Part shown: piece after piece, positions 1 to 9,455 of the stretch | Layout of the letters: the number at the start of each line of letters is the position of its first letter | Position numbering within the stretch: the stretch's first letter is position 1 | Source: Chloroflexota bacterium | Lineage (GTDB): Bacteria; Chloroflexota; Dehalococcoidia; Dehalococcoidales; UBA2162 | Direction: 5' to 3' | NCBI GenBank assembly: GCA_016190895.1 | Contig: JACPPR010000062.1 | Span: forward strand, 1-32,712 | DNA: 32,712 nt | Position numbers and translations under genes: made by a program | Notes under the pieces: model-generated | What the model saw: the letters and a program-made list of their open reading frames with translations, nothing else | Told to the model about the DNA's origin: nothing | Database searches by the model: none

Positions 1-3000
1 GCGTCATCACGGGCTACCGGCGGGTCGTTGACCGAGAATACGGTGATGGTCACCGTAGCGGTATCGAAGAGCCCGCTAGTGTCGCTCACCCGATAAGTAA
101 AGTTATCTGTCCCGTAGAAGTTGGCGGCGGGGGTATAGGTGACCGACCCGGTCGCCGAATTCACCGACGCTTGGCCATTCGCCGGGCCGGCAGTGATATT
201 TACCGTCGTAACGAGGAGGTCGCCATCCACGTCGCTATCGTTAGCCAGTACGGCAATACTCACCGCGGTGTCCTCGTCCGTCATTGCGGCGTCATCATTG
301 GCTACTGGTGGGGAAGGAGCTAGGGTGGTGAAGTTGTCGGTAGTCCCGTAGCTGGTGCCGTCACCCACTGCCTTCGCCCGGAAGTAGTAAGTGGTATTGG
401 CAGACAGACCTGTGATATTAGCGCTGAAGCTGCCGGTCAAGTTAGTGGTGATGTTGGCAGTCTCATAAATGAGACTGCCGGAAGTTGTTCCCCAATCGAA
501 GGAGACGTTGGCTGAGGATGCTGAACCCAGAGAAGTCAGATTGCCACTTACGCGAGCAGAGTTGGTAGTGATGTTGGTGGCATTGGTGGTGACCACCGTT
601 GGCGGTGTAGGCACCGGGATGTTAAAGCTAAGCTCGTTTCCATAAGCAGTACCGTCACCGGCTGCTTTAGCCCTGAAGTAATAGGTATTAGGAGACAATC
701 CGGTCACGTTGATGCTGAAACTGCCGGTGAAACTCAACGAGACTATTTGAGTTTCAAAGGTATAAACCCCCGGGCCGGTGCCAAAAACGAAGGAGACGTT
801 CGCCGAGCTTGCCGACCCGAGGGAAGTCAGGTTGCCGTTTAAGCGGACGGAGTTAGTGGTGATGTTGGTGGCGTTATTGGTGACCACCGACAGCGGTATA
901 ACTGGCAATGTGGTGAAATTGGCCGTGTTGCCATAGCTTGTGCCATCACCGACTGCCTTCGCCCGGAAGTAGTAAGTGGTATTGGCAGACAGACCTGTGA
1001 TATTAGCGCTGAAGCTGCCGGTCAAGTTAGTGGTGATGTGGGCAGTCTCATAAATGAGACTGCCGGAAGTTGTTCCCCAATCGAAGGAGACGTTGGCTGA
1101 GGATGCTGAACCCAGAGAAGTCAGATTGCCGCTTAAACTGGCAGAGTTAGAGGTTATGTTTGTAGCATTACCTGTCGTCACCGACGTTGGTTCTGTGACA
1201 GCAGCCAGTGCATTAACCAGCCCCCAGCCATAGGTGCCATCCCAACCAGTGGTTCCTTTATCTGTAGCAGTGGATTCTAAAGCATTTTTCACCTGGGCGG
1301 GCGTCCAGCCAGGGTTCTTTTGCAGAATCAGGGCAGCCACCCCGGCGGCAATCGGAGTGGCCATAGACGTCCCACCCATTACATAGTAGTCAGCCGGGCC
1401 GTTACTATCGTTAGACCCACCGGATGCGTTACTTCTATTCGGTCCGTCGTTGTCGACATAATAGGTGCCTCTATTAGCCCATGGGTAAGCGACATTATCG
1501 CGAGTAGAGATTATGTTTTTACCAGGGGCTACAATATTTGGCTTGCCCGGAGCGCCGGTATCTACTCTCGGTCCCCGGCTGCTAAAGGTTGCTATCTGGT
1601 CGACTGTCTCACTGGCTGACTGCCAGCCATTGTTGGCATAGTCGTACCAGACCTTCCTGGTAGTGTAAGCGCCGACGGCAATGGCGCTATCAGCATCGGA
1701 CGGTGAGGTAATGGTATAGTTGACATCGGGGCTATCGAATTTTACCCTGGACCCACCCAGGTCGTAATAAATGTGAAAGAACTGACTATTTGAAGAATTG
1801 TTCCTGACCTTCAAGTACCATATGCTATTGCCTGCTGGTACGTAGAGGTTATAGTAAGATAATTCGCTTTCGGTTCCCCTCGAGCTTTGTGACTGTGCCA
1901 AATTGGTGGATGCGACCAGAGTTTGAGCGGAATTATAATATTCCATCACAAGGTCATTGCTGACACCGGTACCATCGAACCAGACCAAGTTAAACTGGAG
2001 GGAGGTATCATTCGTGCCCGCCCCGGTAACATTGACCGAGATAAAATCGGTGGCGCTGCCTCCAGCCACCGTGCCTGAATAATGCTGGCTGTCATTTGAT
2101 TCATTGCCGGCGGCTATCAGTACCACCGCCCCCTGGCTGAAGGCATAGTCAACCGCCTGAGCGTCTTCACCGGTACCATCGTGATAGGTATCCCAGCCAC
2201 CGATGCTCATGGTGATAACATCAGCGTTGTACACATCGACAGCGTCCCGGATAGCATTTGTTATGGCTGAGAGTGGGATGCTGCCATCATCCCTTCCGAC
2301 CTTCAGGAAGATGAGGTCGGCGCCCGGGGCTGAGCCTTTATAGACGCCACCGGATTGAGTGCCTCTGCCCAAGGCGCTGCCGGTGACATGGGTGCCGTGG
2401 CCGGAAACGGGACTAATAACGTTATCATCCAGGGCGGGATAGTTCGAATAGTCCTTCTTGGCAACCGGGGTGGGGAAATCGGGGTGGGTCAGGTCTAAAC
2501 CAGAATCGAGCACGGCAATTTTGACGCCGGCGCCGTCATAGCCAGAAGCCCAGACATCATCGGCATTAATCTTCTGAGCGGCCAAATCATTCTGCTCTTC
2601 AAGCAGCCTCTCGGCTGTCTCCATTCTAGCGACATAGCCTCTCCCGGCCAGTGTCTCCAGCTTGTCTACTGGCATGTCCGCCAGAATGAAGCCGGTGGGG
2701 TGGTTCCCCACCGGTGGTATCCACGAGTCTAAATGCAGGGTAACATTATCAGCTTGAAGCTCGGCTATTTGTGATTGAGTTGGTTTCTGAGCCAGGTGGA
2801 GAAATATTTGCTGCCTGGTGAGGTCTGCCAATCCCGCAGCCTGTGGTTGGAAGGTATCGATAAGCCCACCCTGCTGTGGGACCTCCGCAGTAGCTGGTCT
2901 TACAGTGGCCGGTAATCTACCCGCCCTGACAGCCTGGCGTTTACCTTCAACCTGTAACGCCAGCAGGCCGCTAATCTTAGAGTCTCGAGGAGGCTCTTGA

Positions 3001-3092
3001 GCCTCTGCCCGGTTAGTGGGAAGCAGGTTACCGGGCAGTAACAAGGCCATGAAGACGAGTAGAACCAGGGCAACAGAAAACCTTCTAGCCAT
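1..3092 (-). CDS. Secreted subtilisin-like serine protease (S8) with C-terminal Fn3-like and cadherin-like repeats, partial
   Basis: The frame is open from the ATG at 3092 to the window edge, so the C-terminus is missing (about 1030 residues visible). A signal peptide (hydrophobic residues about 5-20, AEA-type cleavage near residue 30) is followed by a prodomain (about 94-168). The S8 catalytic domain has Asp196 (LDSGLD), His232 (GHGTHVTG), oxyanion Asn330 (AAGN) and Ser576 (GGTSMATP), so the triad is complete. An inserted beta-rich region (about 345-445) resembles a pre-peptidase-type domain. Three Fn3-like repeats of about 95 residues (about 635-925) and a cadherin-like/VCBS-type repeat (about 928-1024) follow, and another such repeat begins at the edge. 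It probably acts outside the cell on proteins or peptides. A strong GGGGAGGGG Shine-Dalgarno precedes the start, which lies 12 bases after the upstream lipoprotein gene; the two are probably co-transcribed. Confidence 0.93.
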   Translation of the reverse strand, partial: MARRFSVALVLLVFMALLLPGNLLPTNRAEAQEPPRDSKISGLLALQVEGKRQAVRAGRLPATVRPATAEVPQQGGLIDTFQPQAAGLADLTRQQIFLHLAQKPTQSQIAELQADNVTLHLDSWIPPVGNHPTGFILADMPVDKLETLAGRGYVARMETAERLLEEQNDLAAQKINADDVWASGYDGAGVKIAVLDSGLDLTHPDFPTPVAKKDYSNYPALDDNVISPVSGHGTHVTGSALGRGTQSGGVYKGSAPGADLIFLKVGRDDGSIPLSAITNAIRDAVDVYNADVITMSIGGWDTYHDGTGEDAQAVDYAFSQGAVVLIAAGNESNDSQHYSGTVAGGSATDFISVNVTGAGTNDTSLQFNLVWFDGTGVSNDLVMEYYNSAQTLVASTNLAQSQSSRGTESELSYYNLYVPAGNSIWYLKVRNNSSNSQFFHIYYDLGGSRVKFDSPDVNYTITSPSDADSAIAVGAYTTRKVWYDYANNGWQSASETVDQIATFSSRGPRVDTGAPGKPNIVAPGKNIISTRDNVAYPWANRGTYYVDNDGPNRSNASGGSNDSNGPADYYVMGGTSMATPIAAGVAALILQKNPGWTPAQVKNALESTATDKGTTGWDGTYGWGLVNALAAVTEPTSVTTGNATNITSNSASLSGNLTSLGSASSANVSFDWGTTSGSLIYETAHITTNLTGSFSANITGLSANTTYYFRAKAVGDGTSYGNTANFTTLPVIPLSVVTNNATNITTNSVRLNGNLTSLGSASSANVSFVFGTGPGVYTFETQIVSLSFTGSFSINVTGLSPNTYYFRAKAAGDGTAYGNELSFNIPVPTPPTVVTTNATNITTNSARVSGNLTSLGSASSANVSFDWGTTSGSLIYETANITTNLTGSFSANITGLSANTTYYFRAKAVGDGTSYGTTDNFTTLAPSPPVANDDAAMTDEDTAVSIAVLANDSDVDGDLLVTTVNITAGPANGQASVNSATGSVTYTPAANFYGTDNFTYRVSDTSGLFDTATVTITVFSVNDPPVARDD
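367..545 (-). repeat. Near-identical Fn3-repeat DNA, copy A
   Basis: This 179-base stretch inside the third Fn3-like domain of the subtilase matches 952-1130 with a single difference seen by eye (T versus G in the ATGTTGG/ATGTGGG segment). The middle Fn3 unit (about 600-900) is clearly diverged. The near identity of units 1 and 3 points to recent duplication or gene conversion. Confidence 0.9.
952..1130 (-). repeat. Near-identical Fn3-repeat DNA, copy B
   Basis: This is the partner of the repeat at 367-545. It lies in the first Fn3-like domain after the catalytic domain. It is also a likely site of assembly collapse or recombination between domains. Confidence 0.9.
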
Positions 3093-3104: not shown

Positions 3105-3566
3105 CTACTGCAGTTGGAACCCATTCTGCGGCTCGAGACGACGCTCGGCCGTTTCCAACCTGACCACGTAATCTTTCTGGGTTAGCTCAGGCAACTTATC
3201 AACCGGCATATCAGCGAGAAGATAGCCGGTGGGGTGATCGCCTACTGGCGGTATCCACGAGTCCGGATATAGAGTGATGCCGAGAGCCTTAATCTCCTCT
3301 ATTTGCGATAGTGTTGGTTTGCTGATTAGGTGAATGAATATCCTTTGGATTTCGAGAGTATCGACATTCATTCCCATCTCTTTCATCGTTCTCAGCCTGT
3401 CCGCAGTGGGGTTGTCTAGCTGCGCCTTCCTGAGGTCTATCTGAGCCAGCAACTGACCGCTAACCTTGTCGCTAATCATGGAATTGTTTGGAATGCTACA
3501 CGAAACTGCAGACAAAGTAAAGACGAGGAAACTGGTAATAACAATCAGAAGCGGTGACTTGCTCAT
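3105..3566 (-). CDS. Free-standing subtilase prodomain-like lipoprotein
   Basis: A 153-residue protein with a hydrophobic N-terminus and a plausible lipobox ending at Cys23 (SAVSC). Residues about 73-148 match the prodomain of the neighbouring subtilase (its residues 94-168), with roughly 49 of 75 identities by eye, including DSWIPPVG, HPTG and LADMPVDKL. There is no catalytic domain; the stop falls just after the prodomain. The ATG at 3566 has a good GGAGGG site. S8 prodomains are known to act as folding chaperones and inhibitors of their protease. By inference this is a membrane-anchored chaperone or inhibitor of the protease encoded 12 bases downstream, or a duplicated remnant. Only the homology to the prodomain is directly seen. 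Confidence 0.8.
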   Translation of the reverse strand: MSKSPLLIVITSFLVFTLSAVSCSIPNNSMISDKVSGQLLAQIDLRKAQLDNPTADRLRTMKEMGMNVDTLEIQRIFIHLISKPTLSQIEEIKALGITLYPDSWIPPVGDHPTGYLLADMPVDKLPELTQKDYVVRLETAERRLEPQNGFQLQ

Positions 3567-3600: not shown

Positions 3601-3652
3601 GTAGACCAGGGCCACTGCTAGAGTGGCCCTGGTCTACCTGTTCTTTTTCTTG
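3601..3652 (+). terminator. Perfect 16-bp hairpin with T-rich tail
   Basis: The arms GTAGACCAGGGCCACT (3601-3616) and their exact complement (3622-3637) flank a 5-base loop. A T-rich run follows on the plus strand (3638-3652). Genes on both sides are on the minus strand, so the T tract points the wrong way for a classical terminator of the upstream gene. The stem could still stop or attenuate transcription between the surface-protein gene and the lipoprotein-protease pair, or protect mRNA ends. Confidence 0.6.
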
Positions 3653-3659
3653 ATGGCGG

Positions 3660-4670
3660 TTAAGCCCTGCGCCGCCTGACTAGCATCACGATGACAATCG
3701 CTACTACTGCTGCTGTCCCCGCTATTATTACCCAGACCCACACTGTCGAGCCGGGTGTTGGCGGCGGCACCACCGGCGCCGTTGGCGGGGTGACGGGCGG
3801 TGTTACTGGTGGCGTGACCGGCGTTACCGGCGGCGTCACAGGCGGTGTGACGGTCGTTACCGGCGCAGTTGGAGCGACTGGTGTCGCCGGTGCCGGTGTT
3901 ACCGGAGCGATGGGAATGGTCGGCGCTGCCGGAGCCGGCGGTGCGCTAACCAAACCAAACACCGTGAAGTGATTAACCTGCGCCGTTACCGTCTTAGCCG
4001 CTGTATTTACGGTACTGGTCAAATTTACCCATTTACTGCCATCCCAGTAGGCGATGTACAGGTCAGTTTCCTTCGATCCGGCTGGCAATGAGGCTAACGT
4101 ATAGTTGTAGGTCAAAGTTATCGGCGGGTTTATGACAGCCCCGTTGGGACCTAAGTCATAAGAGAGCATAATCTTATTGCCCGCCGGAGGCGCCGGCGGC
4201 GCGATGACATCAGCAACCGTCAGTGACGTTAAAGGATTGCCTTTAGCATCGGCTAATTTGGTACCCTTGGCTACACTGAGAGAGACTTCCTTGCCGCTAC
4301 TTGCCAGCAGGGAACTTGTCAGCACTTTGCCGCTCTCGTCTACCTGTAGCGGAGGCACCGCGCTCATTCCCGGAGTGAACACAGTTACGATGGTCGGTGG
4401 GCCTAGAGACGCCACAGCCGAACTCTGCAAAAAGAATTGGGTGCTTTGCTGGGTGAATAACCTGTTATCGACAGGATTTCCAGTTGCAGTGGCAAGCCCA
4501 ACTGTTACTCTGTGGTTACCAGCCGGCCAGCTCGTGGGGGGCGTCCAGGTAATAGTATAAATTAGCTTAGTCGAGCCAGCGCTTAAGGCGCTATAGCCAT
4601 AGCCGTTGGCAGGAGCAAAATAGCGGTAAACATAGCCCTTCCATATTGCGTAGCCATAGCCTAGCGTTGC
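3660..4670 (-). pseudogene. C-terminal part of the HTH/Ig surface protein, separated by a -1 frameshift
   Basis: The frame is open from about 4800 down to the stop at 3660, but it has no ATG or GTG start; the first TTG (4430) lies well inside conserved-looking sequence and lacks a proper site. It continues the Ig-like ectodomain of the upstream ORF: a Gly/Tyr-rich stretch (YGYAIW, GYGYSA), then an Ig-like strand set (YTITWTPPTSWPAGNHRVTV), a further beta domain, a Pro/Thr/Val-rich linker (about 4000-3760) and a C-terminal membrane segment (VWVIIAGTAAVVAIVIVMLV) ending in RRRRA. Re-reading one base near 4670 joins the two reading frames into one protein of about 675 residues. It may be a real mutation, an assembly error or recoding. 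Confidence 0.7.
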
Positions 4671-5686
4671 TGGATATTGACGCGTGTCACGGTGACGCTC
4701 GCCGCCCCGCCCCCGGTTTGTTGGCTGGTATAATTGACCTGGCTTCCGTCTGTGAATGGCAGGTTGAGAAGATTGGCCATCAGGCTCGGGTTGACAGAGC
4801 TAATGATTGATACGTCCATGCCTGCAATCGGTACAAGCTCAGGATTCGGAATGTTTACTGTCACCTTAAAATTATAAGTCTGACCGAGGGTGCCTGAAGT
4901 GAGTGAATTCCCATTTGAGTCAGTAATGTCGATTGTGAGCGCTTTAACCTGAGATGGCGAAGCGAACCAGAGTGAACCGGCAACAGCCAACATTAGAACA
5001 AATGCCAGGCCGATTCTCGCTAGAGCCCTTCCCTTTACCAGATGTTTCACAATATTGACTCCCATTTTGTCCCCTCCACCCATCATTATTTTCTTCTCTT
5101 TGTAGTTCTTCCTGATGGATTGGCGCAGTTCCTGATTTTTCAAGATACCAGCTACATCAGATGGTACTCTCCCTGCCAAAGTCATCAGGTCATCTTTAGC
5201 ACAACCTAACGCCTCCGCTAGTTTCAATATCACCTTTTCACTGGGCGGAGGTCTGACACCGTTTTCAATCTTGCTAAGATAGGTAAAGCTGATTCCAACC
5301 CTGCTAGCAAGTTCGTTTTGACTGAGACCGGCTTTCTCTCGTAACTCCCGTAGTCTCTTATTGAAACTGTCGCTCTTGCTGACTCCCCCAGACTTTACTT
5401 TAACATCGCCTTCTCTCAGGGATTGCAGGGCATTGCGATTCTTCAATAATATTCGAACTATGTCCGCCGGAACCTTGCCAGCTAAGGTCAGTAGCTCATC
5501 GCCATCCGCCTTGAGAACCTTAGCCAGTTTTAGTATGACTTCCTGGCTGGGCGGAGGCACTGCTCCATTCTCTATCTTGCTGAGATAGCTGAAGTCAACT
5601 CCGATTTTCTGAGCCAGCTCCCTCTGGCTCAGACCGGACTGCTCCCTCAGTTTTTTTAACTTTGAACCGAATTCGCTTGTTTGCAT
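4661..5686 (-). CDS. Tandem XRE-type HTH protein with membrane segment and Ig-like ectodomain, N-terminal part
   Basis: A 341-residue reading frame. Residues about 8-70 and 108-171 are two closely related XRE/HTH_3 domains (GLSQRELAQKIGV..YLSKIENG and GLSQNELASRVGI..YLSKIENG), an apparent internal duplication. A hydrophobic segment at about 223-242 is followed by Ala-x-Ala-like residues and an Ig-like domain from about 249. The N-terminus should be cytoplasmic and DNA-binding, the C-terminal part outside. The frame ends at 4661, but its natural continuation is in the next frame (3660-4670). An internal ATG at 5065 (residue 208) has a far better ribosome site (GGTGGAGGGG) than the first ATG, so a separate surface protein may also be made. 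I infer a membrane-tethered regulator or a chance fusion of regulator and surface-protein genes. Confidence 0.75.
   Translation of the reverse strand: MQTSEFGSKLKKLREQSGLSQRELAQKIGVDFSYLSKIENGAVPPPSQEVILKLAKVLKADGDELLTLAGKVPADIVRILLKNRNALQSLREGDVKVKSGGVSKSDSFNKRLRELREKAGLSQNELASRVGISFTYLSKIENGVRPPPSEKVILKLAEALGCAKDDLMTLAGRVPSDVAGILKNQELRQSIRKNYKEKKIMMGGGDKMGVNIVKHLVKGRALARIGLAFVLMLAVAGSLWFASPSQVKALTIDITDSNGNSLTSGTLGQTYNFKVTVNIPNPELVPIAGMDVSIISSVNPSLMANLLNLPFTDGSQVNYTSQQTGGGAASVTVTRVNIQQR
5063..5080 (-). promoter_or_regulatory. Internal ribosome binding site and start codon inside the HTH/Ig gene
   Basis: GGTGGAGGGG (5071-5080, read on the minus strand) lies five bases before an in-frame ATG at 5065-5063. 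Initiation here would give a protein starting with MGVNIVKHLVKGR and then a hydrophobic stretch, which looks like an ordinary signal peptide. The annotated upstream ATG at 5686 has only a weak site. Confidence 0.5.
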
Positions 5687-5699
5687 CCTGATAACCCAT

Positions 5700-5733
5700 G
5701 TTTAGACAAAACCTAGCATCAGTTTAGGACAAA
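5700..5733. repeat. Direct repeat overlapping the HTH-gene promoter, possible operator
   Basis: GTTTAGACAAA (5700-5710) and GTTTAGGACAAA (5722-5733) lie 22 bases apart in the same orientation, about two helical turns. One copy covers the -10 box and the other covers the leader. A protein with two tandem HTH domains could bind such a pair, so autoregulation is a reasonable inference. Binding itself cannot be seen. Confidence 0.4.
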
Positions 5734-5749
5734 TTGAATGAAAAGTCAA
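5721..5749 (-). promoter_or_regulatory. Sigma-70-like promoter of the tandem-HTH gene
   Basis: Read on the minus strand, TTGACT (5749-5744) and TAAACT (5726-5721) are separated by 17 bases. Transcription would start near 5714, giving a leader of about 28 bases before the ATG at 5686. Confidence 0.6.
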
Positions 5750-5950
5750 ACCTTGAGAGCATTCTTTAATATCAATATTTCCTGTTGACTAGCAAGTCTA
5801 CGCTTGGAAAGGGCGAGAAGACAATTTGGCCTAACGGAAACACGAAAGTATAATCATCGTTTACTTTTGTTTACTTTTTATTAGAGATTTGTGTTAAGAT
5901 GACGTCACGCCGGTTAGCGAGAAATCAGAACGCATTGAAGAGAAAATCTG

Positions 5951-6202: not shown

Positions 6203-6772
6203 TTGATAGATACCACGAAACTTGTCGAAATCAGGTGGCACGGGCGAGGCGGCCAGGGCGCCGTTACTTCTGCCGAGCTGCTGGCCAAAGCAGCCATTGA
6301 CGAGGGCAAATATGCCCAGGCCTTCCCCAGTTTCGGCCCGGAAAGGAGAGGGGCGCCGGTGCTGGCTTTCGATAGGATAAGTCCCAAAATTCCGATAAGA
6401 GTCAGGGCGGAAATTACCCAGCCCGATGTTGTGGTCATACTCGATTCGGGTCTGGTACGGGTAGTTAACGTTACCGCGGGACTAAAAGAGAACGGCATGA
6501 TAATCGTGAACACCAAGAGGCCGCTTGAGGAAGTGGCTGCTGAGTTTGATAAGAAGTGGAGCGTGGCTGCCGTCGACGCTACAAGGATCGCCCAGGAGGT
6601 TCTGGGGGTGAACATCGTTAATACTACCATGCTGGGAGCTTTGCTCAGGGCCGCCGGCGTGGCTAAGCTGGAATCATTACAGGAACCACTGCAAGAACGT
6701 TTCGGGCGCCTGGCGGAAAGAAATGCGAATGCCATGAAAAGGGCTTTCGAAGAAACAAAGATAAAGGAGTAG
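6203..6772 (+). CDS. porG: Pyruvate:ferredoxin oxidoreductase, gamma subunit
   Basis: A 189-residue protein of the 2-oxoacid:acceptor oxidoreductase gamma family, the usual full length. The N-terminal GRGGQGAVTSAELLAKAA motif and the AFPSFGPERRGAPV segment are characteristic. It forms the catalytic module with the alpha and beta subunits that converts pyruvate, CoA and oxidised ferredoxin to acetyl-CoA, CO2 and reduced ferredoxin in the cytoplasm. The TTG start at 6203 is chosen because AAGGAGGAAG lies just upstream. It is the first of four tightly linked genes (order gamma, delta, alpha, beta); the delta gene starts three bases after its stop. Related 2-oxoacids remain possible substrates, but the alpha and beta subunits look like the pyruvate type. 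Confidence 0.92.
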   Translation: MIDTTKLVEIRWHGRGGQGAVTSAELLAKAAIDEGKYAQAFPSFGPERRGAPVLAFDRISPKIPIRVRAEITQPDVVVILDSGLVRVVNVTAGLKENGMIIVNTKRPLEEVAAEFDKKWSVAAVDATRIAQEVLGVNIVNTTMLGALLRAAGVAKLESLQEPLQERFGRLAERNANAMKRAFEETKIKE

Positions 6773-6775
6773 AAA

Positions 6776-7072
6776 GTGGCAGTTAAGAGTGAGAGTGAAC
6801 TGGGCTGGAAAGACATAGAAACCGGTTGTATTGTAACCGAGGCAGGTAGCGCTGCCCAGTATCCGACGGGCGGCTGGCGCTCACAAAAACCGGAATATGA
6901 CAACTCTAAATGCAATAAATGCGGGCTTTGCTACATTTATTGCCCTGATTGTTCTATCACCCAGCAACCTGATGGATTTTACAAAGTCGACATGTTTTAT
7001 TGCAAGGGGTGCGGCATTTGCGCCAAGGAATGCCCCAGGGATGTCATAACGATGGTACCGGAGGCAGGATAA
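6776..7072 (+). CDS. porD: Pyruvate:ferredoxin oxidoreductase, delta (ferredoxin-like) subunit
   Basis: A 98-residue protein with two [4Fe-4S] motifs, CNKCGLCYIYCPDC and CKGCGICAKECPRD, in its second half. This is the ferredoxin-like subunit that passes electrons from the TPP site to external ferredoxin. The GTG start at 6776 is preceded by AAGGAG, which overlaps the end of porG. The next gene starts directly after the stop, with no spacing, which suggests translational coupling. Confidence 0.93.
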   Translation: MAVKSESELGWKDIETGCIVTEAGSAAQYPTGGWRSQKPEYDNSKCNKCGLCYIYCPDCSITQQPDGFYKVDMFYCKGCGICAKECPRDVITMVPEAG

Positions 7073-8248
7073 TTGGCTAAAAGGGTAGGAATGGAAGTTT
7101 CCCTGGCAATCGGAGAAGCCGCTAAACTGGCCGATGTCGATGTCGTGGCTGCCTATCCGATAACCCCTCAGACTCACATCGTCGAGCACCTGGCCGAACT
7201 GGTGGCTAACGGTGAATTAAAGTCGGCTTATATTCCGGTCGAATCGGAACACTCCGCGATGAGCGCTTGCCTTGGCTCGGCGGCAGTCGGTGCCCGGACT
7301 TTTACGGCTACTGCCGGACAAGGACTGGAACTGATGCATGAAGTGCTCTATGTCGCCGCGTCGATGCAATTACCGATGGTCATGGCGGTAGCTAACCGGG
7401 CGTTGTCAGCGCCTTTGAGCGTCTGGGGCGACCACTCCGATGTTATGGCGGTGCGTGATACCGGCTGGATTCAAATATTCACCGAGAACGGGCAGGAAGT
7501 CTTTGATACTGTTCTCTGTGCCTTCCGCATTGCTGAAGACCCGAAAGTGCTGCTGCCGGTAATGGTTCACCTGGATGGTTTTCACCTTTCCCACATGATA
7601 GAGCCGATTCTGATTTCTGAAGAGGATGAGGTAAAGAGGTTCTTGCCTCCCTTCAAATATCCTTTAGCCCTCGACCCGAAAAAACCGGTGACCATGGGCG
7701 CCTTTGCCCCGCCGGTAATCTATTCCGAGGCCAGGAAAGCTCAGGAAGTCCACCTGGCCGGTACGAAAGAGGCTATCGTGAAATGCTGGGACGAATTTGC
7801 CAGTATCTTCGGGCGCCGCTATTTGCCAGTGGAGACCTACCGCGCGGAGGGAGCCAAAACATTGCTCATGACTATGGGCAGCTTCAGCGAAACGGCCATG
7901 GAAACTATCGATAAGATGAGGGCTGACGGCAAGGATATCGGGCTGGTCAGATTGAGACTCTGGCGTCCATTTCCAACCACCGAACTGCGCCAGGCGGTTA
8001 AGGATGCCGAAACGCTAGTAGTATTCGACAGGGCTATTTCTCTTGGCAGCCAGGCCGGACCGGTCTGTTCGGAAGTCAGGTCAGCCCTGTATAACCTGGA
8101 GAAGAAACCGAGGGTAGCCAGCGTCATCGGCGGCCTGGGGGGCAGGGATGTCACTGTCGCCGGTTTTGAGGAGATAATCAACATCGGTATTAAGATGGCG
8201 AAGAAGGAAAGCCAGCAGGAAATCGAAATATTCGGAGTGAGAGAGTAA
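7073..8248 (+). CDS. porA: Pyruvate:ferredoxin oxidoreductase, alpha subunit
   Basis: A 391-residue protein, the expected length for a separate alpha chain. It carries AYPITPQTHIVEHLAEL near the N-terminus, PVESEHSAMSACLGSAAVGAR, and the TATAGQGLELMHE segment of the pyrimidine-binding domain, with the MVMAVANRALSAPLSVWGDHSD stretch typical of pyruvate rather than oxoglutarate enzymes. The TTG start at 7073 immediately follows the porD stop. Its stop codon overlaps the porB ATG by one base. Confidence 0.93.
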   Translation: MAKRVGMEVSLAIGEAAKLADVDVVAAYPITPQTHIVEHLAELVANGELKSAYIPVESEHSAMSACLGSAAVGARTFTATAGQGLELMHEVLYVAASMQLPMVMAVANRALSAPLSVWGDHSDVMAVRDTGWIQIFTENGQEVFDTVLCAFRIAEDPKVLLPVMVHLDGFHLSHMIEPILISEEDEVKRFLPPFKYPLALDPKKPVTMGAFAPPVIYSEARKAQEVHLAGTKEAIVKCWDEFASIFGRRYLPVETYRAEGAKTLLMTMGSFSETAMETIDKMRADGKDIGLVRLRLWRPFPTTELRQAVKDAETLVVFDRAISLGSQAGPVCSEVRSALYNLEKKPRVASVIGGLGGRDVTVAGFEEIINIGIKMAKKESQQEIEIFGVRE

Positions 8249-9186
8249 TGACAGAAAACTATATTGCCTTCGGCAAGCGACAGGTAACCAAAGAGGAATA
8301 TTTTGCCCCTGGCCACAGGGCTTGCATCGGCTGCGCCGAAGCCCTGGCCGTCCGGCTGGCGGCCAAAGCGCTCGGACCGAATACAATTATCGTTGCTGCT
8401 ACCGGTTGTATGGAGATTGTCGCCTCTCAGATGCCCTGGACATCCTGGAGGCTGCCCTGGATTCATACCCTGTTTGAGAATACTGCCGCGGTCGCTTCCG
8501 GAATCGAATCCGGCTTGAGGACTTTAGAGAGCAAGGGCAAGAAGCCTGTAGAGGGCATTAATGTGGTCGCTACTGCCGGAGACGGCGGCACCAGCGATAT
8601 CGGACTTCAGGCTCTGTCCGGAGCTTTAGAGCGGGGACATAAATTCCTTTATATCTGCTGGGATAACGAAGCCTATATGAATACAGGTATTCAGCGGTCG
8701 TCCTCGACCCCTTACGGCGCTTCGACAACGACGGCTCCGGCCGGTAAGCAAAGCATCGGGCAAATGACCTGGAAAAAGAACCTGCCGGCTATCGTGGCTG
8801 CCCATAACATACCCTATGTGGCGACAGCCTGCCCGAGTTATCCCTTTGATTTTATGGATAAAGTAGTCAAAGGCTCGAAGGTAGACGGTCCAGCTTACAT
8901 TCACGTCTTCTCGGTATGTCCCACCGGATGGCGGTCGGCTCCGGAGATGTCTATCGAACTGGGACGCCTGGCTGTGCAGACCGGGGTATTCCCACTGTTT
9001 GAGATTGAAAACGGGAAATACAAGATAAATGTTAATACACCGAAGCGCAAGCCGGTCGCAGATTATCTCAAGATACAGGGGCGGTTCCGCCACCTGTCCG
9101 AGCAAGAGATAAAACTGATTCAGGACAGGGTGGATAAAGAATACGATGCCCTTGTTGAACGAGCCGAGAAAGACAAAGCGGCGTAG
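8248..9186 (+). CDS. porB: Pyruvate:ferredoxin oxidoreductase, beta (TPP-binding) subunit
   Basis: A 312-residue protein with the TPP/Mg motif GDGGTSDIGLQALSGALERG and a later asparagine in WDNEAYMNTG. Cysteines in CIGCAEAL and ATGCMEIV, plus a later cysteine, fit the [4Fe-4S] cluster of beta chains. With the gamma, delta and alpha chains it completes the heterotetrameric enzyme, which supplies reduced ferredoxin in anaerobes or fixes CO2 in the reverse direction. The start overlaps the porA stop (TAATG). It is the last gene of the operon; a palindromic repeat and a tRNA follow. Confidence 0.94.
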   Translation: MTENYIAFGKRQVTKEEYFAPGHRACIGCAEALAVRLAAKALGPNTIIVAATGCMEIVASQMPWTSWRLPWIHTLFENTAAVASGIESGLRTLESKGKKPVEGINVVATAGDGGTSDIGLQALSGALERGHKFLYICWDNEAYMNTGIQRSSSTPYGASTTTAPAGKQSIGQMTWKKNLPAIVAAHNIPYVATACPSYPFDFMDKVVKGSKVDGPAYIHVFSVCPTGWRSAPEMSIELGRLAVQTGVFPLFEIENGKYKINVNTPKRKPVADYLKIQGRFRHLSEQEIKLIQDRVDKEYDALVERAEKDKAA

Positions 9187-9391: not shown

Positions 9392-9455
9392 TTTGAGTAA
9401 ATGGACAAGATATAGACTCAAAAGTATTGCTCCCCCTCCGCCCTGAGATTCTTCG

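Follow-up and report, generated by a model that had tools for sequence, protein, structure and literature searches.

The window analyzed here is the whole 32,712-nucleotide contig G000:C43 of a draft genome from the order Dehalococcoidales. On its minus strand lies a gene that opens with a 341-amino-acid (aa) frame, in which two Xre-type helix-turn-helix (HTH) domains are followed by a hydrophobic segment (aa 225-241, with four basic residues ahead of it) and, at the end of the frame, by a beta-rich, Ig-like start (Table 1). The Pfam HTH_3 model matched this ORF in two stretches (9e-38, 128.5 bits versus a curated cut-off of 23), and both domains were modelled at pLDDT >90. The DNA-binding and membrane parts of the window copy therefore share the first frame, and with it one chain. 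This frame stops at a TAG codon (4661-4663), and the remaining surface parts are encoded in another frame that runs down to position 3660.

Downstream on the same strand, beyond a 16-bp hairpin, are a gene for a 153-aa lipoprotein-like protein (3105-3566, minus strand) and then a subtilase of more than 1030 aa (3-3092, minus strand). The 153-aa protein had no match in Pfam; it resembles the propeptide region of the adjoining subtilase, and could be a stand-alone inhibitor or a folding helper. Divergent from the HTH-surface gene, at 6203-9186 on the plus strand, are genes that, by eye only, look like those of a four-subunit 2-oxoacid:ferredoxin oxidoreductase.

Table 1. Features of the HTH-surface gene, its upstream region and its downstream border (positions in the window).
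Feature	Position	Strand	Basis
Distal operator TAGACTTGCTAGTCAA; 3 mismatches, 1 in the general form	5785..5800	-	comparison
Proximal operator TTGACTTTTCATTCAA, overlapping the −35 box; 2 mismatches	5734..5749	-	comparison
Putative promoter TTGACT-17-TAAACT	5721..5749	-	
First frame, 341 aa: HTH1, HTH2, membrane segment, Ig-like start; stop TAG	4661..5686	-	ORF list, Pfam, structure model
HTH1, aa 5-65, Xre/HTH_3; additional relative to other members	5492..5674	-	Pfam, structure model
HTH2, aa 110-172, Xre/HTH_3; aligns with the single HTH of relatives	5171..5359	-	alignment, Pfam, structure model
Internal ATG (5063-5065) with strong Shine-Dalgarno-like GGAGG; possible start of an HTH-free product, weakly supported	5063..5079	-	
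Membrane segment, aa 225-241, signal-peptide-like	4964..5014	-	
VKA preceding LT, signal peptidase I-like site; position kept in 24/24 homologues	4940..4948	-	
Net one-base frame change, approximate place; relatives continuous here	4661..4676	-	
Second frame: Gly/Tyr-rich part, beta domain (YDLGPNGA... type), Pro/Thr linker, C-terminal membrane segment, basic tail	3660..4664	-	
C-terminal membrane segment (VWVWVIIAG...LVRRRRA) and RRRRA tail	3663..3743	-	
16-bp hairpin separating the gene from the protease genes downstream; on the plus strand its tail is T-rich	3601..3637		

A first-pass annotation of this DNA had described one composite protein with a double HTH, a membrane segment, Ig-like and Gly/Tyr-rich regions, a Pro/Thr linker and a second membrane segment. 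All of these parts are present, but in the window they do not form one open frame. The two frames of the window align with the relatives across the junction and the fused homologues are uninterrupted there, and the composite is therefore the architecture of the family. Indeed, 12 relatives carry the HTH, membrane and surface parts in a complete single frame of about 545 to 704 aa, with one giant form of 1301 aa, so that the HTH and the surface protein are not always separate genes, and the predicted combination of a cytoplasmic HTH, a membrane segment and an Ig-type exterior in one gene holds for most relatives. The order of parts in these proteins is HTH, linker, membrane segment, an Ig-like domain with a Gly/Tyr stretch and a second beta domain (often CARDB), followed by a Pro-rich linker, a C-terminal membrane segment and a basic tail. 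Another three fused members are cut short by the end of their contig: one in G131, one in G036, and the additional copy that the window's own genome carries on G000:C57. The CARDB model scored above its cut-off in relatives L007, L009, L011 and L016, and a structural match to 3idu (CARDB; TM 0.64) was found for the relatives; Pfam gave no CARDB match in the window copy itself, and besides CARDB the whole-model structure search returned generic Ig/beta matches only. In the relatives, the product is thus an Ig/CARDB-type surface protein with a C-terminal anchor.

Among the 20 HTH-membrane genes that we collected, 16 have the surface part (the frame-changed window copy included) and 4 have TPR repeats instead. 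In three of these four, the next gene separately encodes the surface protein, which shares up to about 50-60% identity with the C-terminal half of the fused proteins; the fourth stops at a contig edge. Because such split forms exist, the covalent link between HTH and surface protein is not essential. Four surface homologues occur without an HTH (G011, G146 and two in G138). At a set of loci of another family (L081, L093, L095-L098 and L160), the gene or split operon precedes one for a conserved membrane protein of about 246 aa, in most cases one for an 83-aa protein, and often one for a larger exported protein (DUF4129 in L093).

A single HTH is the rule in the relatives. The window's tandem arrangement is unusual, with one other case, at L159 2-433 (G032:C23), which is truncated by its contig end. 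A tree of the HTH domains recovered no origin for HTH1. Within the host's order, 19 of 156 genomes contain the HTH-membrane module. Its presence in other orders was considered and dropped, since samples of the class and phylum (393 and 400 genomes) held no full-length match and yielded HTH-alone or partial matches only. The HTH-only relatives in these samples are soluble regulators, some of which also contain PAS-LuxR or Crp-like parts. Elsewhere in the class, the same HTH subfamily heads proteins of 325-391 aa (L063, L066-L072 and L074; L066 is PAS-LuxR-like and L071 Crp-like), several of which have upstream the same palindrome that is described below.

The upstream sequences of the family members have in common CTTGACTTTTTACTCAACAT, which forms the inverted repeat TTGASTNNNNASTCAA with the −35 box as its left half. 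This palindrome overlaps the −35 box in 18 of the 20 HTH-membrane genes, a count that takes homologues of common ancestry as if they were independent, and in these 18 promoters a −10-like hexamer lies 17 bp after TTGACT. Information content is 1.6-1.8 bits in both half-sites, as compared to 0.1-0.5 in the flanks and the remaining promoter spacer. The right half-site lies within the spacer, at positions that a role in the promoter would not by itself keep constant, and yet it reaches 1.6 bits per position; the remainder of the spacer holds 0.5 and the sequence downstream 0.1. In the giant members (the G000 paralogue and G006), the palindrome sits close to the start codon, downstream of the apparent promoter.

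In the window itself the palindrome was matched three times, versus 0.37 expected, and no shuffle reached three. Two of these matches lie ahead of the HTH-surface gene, the distal one 51 bp (about 5 helical turns) upstream of the proximal one, and both are weaker than the family pattern (2 and 3 mismatches). The only other match (9393-9408) is weak, with 3 mismatches, and far from the proteases. The HTH had previously been proposed to bind DNA at 5700-5735. DNA binding as such is strongly supported by the conserved putative operator, but the region was misplaced: the TTTGTC(C)TAAAC repeats at 5700-5735 are not conserved in relatives, and the conserved operators are instead at 5734-5749 and 5785-5800.

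To what extent is this palindrome specific to the family? Across 21 genomes, the stricter pattern TTGACTTTTTASTCAACA had 30 matches with up to 2 mismatches, all but two of them at family genes; of the two elsewhere, one is within a dehydrogenase-like gene and one ahead of a response regulator. The reversed control of this pattern had 0 matches in the same 21 genomes. Exact matches of the general form, TTGASTNNNNASTCAACA, were all at genes of the HTH-membrane/surface family, and its single-mismatch matches elsewhere barely exceeded the control. Two matches at the end of contig G000:C85 represent the promoter of the C57 paralogue, because the C85 end and the C57 start (L150, L086) overlap by 141 bp and belong together.

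The palindrome was also present, within 1 mismatch, upstream of 8 of 18 soluble Xre genes of the same subfamily in other lineages, versus 0 of 23 generic Xre genes (Fisher p = 0.0005); 7 of the 18 soluble relatives had none within 2 mismatches. No palindrome was found at the surface homologues of the HTH-less genomes G011 and G146. The predicted operator thus follows the HTH, and not the surface part or Xre genes at large. Since the palindrome is nearly private to the family's own promoters and tied to the HTH, the HTH very probably binds its own promoter. In G138, which also carries an HTH-bearing copy, an HTH-less giant paralogue (L155 2981-6514) has an exact site 72 bp upstream (G138:C13:7408) and is a probable target in trans. 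A counterexample is a soluble 102-aa HTH protein of G008 that is close to the fused family (L089 2668-2973, G008:C26): it lacks the operator, in a genome that has this stand-alone HTH plus a fused copy.

A second copy of the palindrome occurs in 14 promoters, at a distance of 42-44, 51-54, 63, 73-74 or 94 bp. With 10.5 bp per turn, these spacings correspond to 4.1, 5.0, 6.0, 7.0 and 8.95 turns, that is, to whole turns of 4, 5, 6, 7 and 9. The 14 pairs give R = 0.87 for the 10.5-bp period, a value that 0 of 200,000 random sets reached, and p = 7×10−5 when distinct spacings only are used; kinship of the promoters reduces the effective number, and five separate spacing classes are all in phase. 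This phasing suggests that two bound dimers may touch each other or form a loop.

Taken together, we consider it likely that the HTH-membrane-surface gene encodes a self-regulated surface protein. In the proposed mechanism, the N-terminal Xre domain (doubled in the window) would bind the palindrome over its own −35 box, usually with the upstream repeat on the same helix face, and would thereby lower its own transcription. That the HTH probably represses its gene, rather than activating it, is read solely from the position of the site. The same chain would continue through a signal-peptide-like membrane segment into an Ig/CARDB-type surface protein with a second, C-terminal anchor, and the amount of surface protein would thereby probably feed back on its own production. 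Most of the genomes are drafts, and these functional statements rest on sequence comparison.

The frame change bears on whether the window copy itself still works in this manner. Because 12 relatives carry the layout in one complete frame, it is peculiar to the window copy or to its assembly; with one draft genome at hand, it may be either a real mutation or an assembly error, and if real, the window copy may be truncated. A programmed frameshift was rejected, as no slippery heptamer was seen at the junction (by eye only) and the relatives are continuous there. It is possible, though we do not favor it, that the window copy is a decaying gene, in which a real mutation has cut the double-HTH membrane protein short and left the surface part without translation. 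The degenerate window operators would fit such decay, as would the paralogue in the same genome, which is apparently intact as far as its contig end. On the other hand, about 330 codons past the frame change are open and still alignable to the relatives, and single-base errors are frequent in draft assemblies.

For the family as a whole, self-regulation raises the question of how the HTH would be coupled to the fate of the surface part. In all 24 homologues examined, simple rules identify basic residues, a hydrophobic core and then [VTA]xA at a nearly fixed distance. This is the pattern of a type I signal peptide, in which a basic n-region precedes a hydrophobic core and small residues occupy positions −3 and −1. 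The HTH-less homologues start just ahead of this segment. The membrane segment therefore resembles a signal peptide of the cleavable kind. A search of 12 genomes identified signal peptidase I in 11 of them and M50 proteases, which nearly all bacteria possess, in all 12. Site-2 proteases clear signal-peptide remnants, and cut RseA and FecR following cleavage of their exterior (PMC10470546, PMC10202637). We tentatively propose, as the most probable coupling, that the amount of HTH free to reach the operators might be set by export together with signal peptidase cleavage, to which a cut by a site-2 protease may be added. More speculative is the full form of this idea, by which the repressor would be an N-terminal extension of the surface protein's signal peptide, and signal peptidase and then a site-2 protease would free one HTH per export, so that the cell would count its exports. 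Lasting tethering, with repression exerted from the membrane, is an alternative coupling. If export or cleavage does control the HTH, the cell would have a direct gauge of how much surface protein it has delivered.

M50 genes lie near the family gene in G008, G045 and G011. We discarded this proximity as evidence, since the G011 homologue is without an HTH and plain synteny may explain it. The neighbours of L079, L084 and L091 include an M50 site-2 protease and a CinA-like gene in all three cases, together with an Rce1-like CAAX protease in L079 and L091 and, on the other side, a DUF1616-like gene and a reductase in L079 and L084.

Another way to separate the two activities would be to make two products, with an internal start yielding a surface protein that lacks the HTH and has a normal signal peptide, and with the full-length chain serving as the regulator. 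A strong Shine-Dalgarno-like site precedes an in-frame ATG just ahead of the membrane segment in 8 of 20 genes, versus 4.6% of windows from other ORFs, and the HTH-less homologues begin at the corresponding Met. However, the site also arises under synonymous recoding (Fisher p = 0.44) and is absent from 12 of the 20 genes, and we therefore rejected the internal start as a conserved feature. We regard the two-product scheme as unlikely; it is in any case compatible with autoregulation and hence no full alternative to it.

The first-pass annotation had viewed the protein as a one-component transmembrane receptor, whose exterior would detect a signal at the surface and whose membrane-held HTH would control other genes, for example the adjacent proteases. 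The layout does fit transmembrane transcription regulators, which are common (PMC10269533), and a hydrophobic segment is combined with a conserved ectodomain. Such a receptor nevertheless appears improbable, given that the operators lie almost solely at the promoter of the gene itself, that TPR repeats replace the ectodomain in four members, and that the signal peptidase-like site in 24/24 homologues would sever the exterior from the HTH. Control of the protease genes in particular was not borne out: the palindrome is almost private to its own promoter, the hairpin lies in between, and the protease neighbours did not recur at the relatives' loci. A RodZ-like role, in which the HTH would be a protein-binding cytoskeleton module that does not bind DNA, is very improbable despite the identical order of parts and weak HTH_25 and RodZ matches, as HTH_3 scores far more strongly than HTH_25, the RodZ equivalog model reaches 31.7 bits versus a cut-off of 208, and a conserved operator accompanies the HTH.

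The self-regulated surface protein thus provides a clear, testable case, in which a structural surface protein would carry its own promoter-specific predicted DNA-binding domain, with the candidate operator already identified. Our literature searches, whose coverage was incomplete, retrieved no description of the HTH-membrane-surface family or its operator; several known systems share parts of the design. ToxR, CadC and TcpP belong to a class of transmembrane transcription regulators that a survey found to be common (PMC10269533), and likewise have a single chain that runs from a DNA-binding domain through one membrane segment to an exterior. Here, however, the domain is of the Xre/HTH_3 type, a structural surface protein with a C-terminal anchor forms the exterior, the putative operator is private to its own gene, and a signal peptidase-like site is conserved past the membrane segment. 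RodZ has the same HTH-membrane-exterior order but is a cytoskeletal HTH_25 protein, whereas an operator is present here. RseA and FecR (PMC10202637, PMC10470546) offer an analogy for a possible intramembrane cut after exterior cleavage, by which the cytoplasmic part would be freed; the proteins described here differ in having no anti-sigma domain, and their processing is a proposal from sequence. The soluble Xre repressors SinR, 434 and RstR have the HTH_3 fold and a palindromic operator over their own promoter, and here such an HTH is joined to both a membrane anchor and a surface protein. PutA-type autogenous repressors (PMC5293562) are proteins with another main job whose N-terminal DNA-binding domain represses their own gene, as is predicted here, with membrane location as the switch. 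PutA, however, is a ribbon-helix-helix enzyme that moves reversibly, while in this family an Xre domain would be carried by an exported surface protein.
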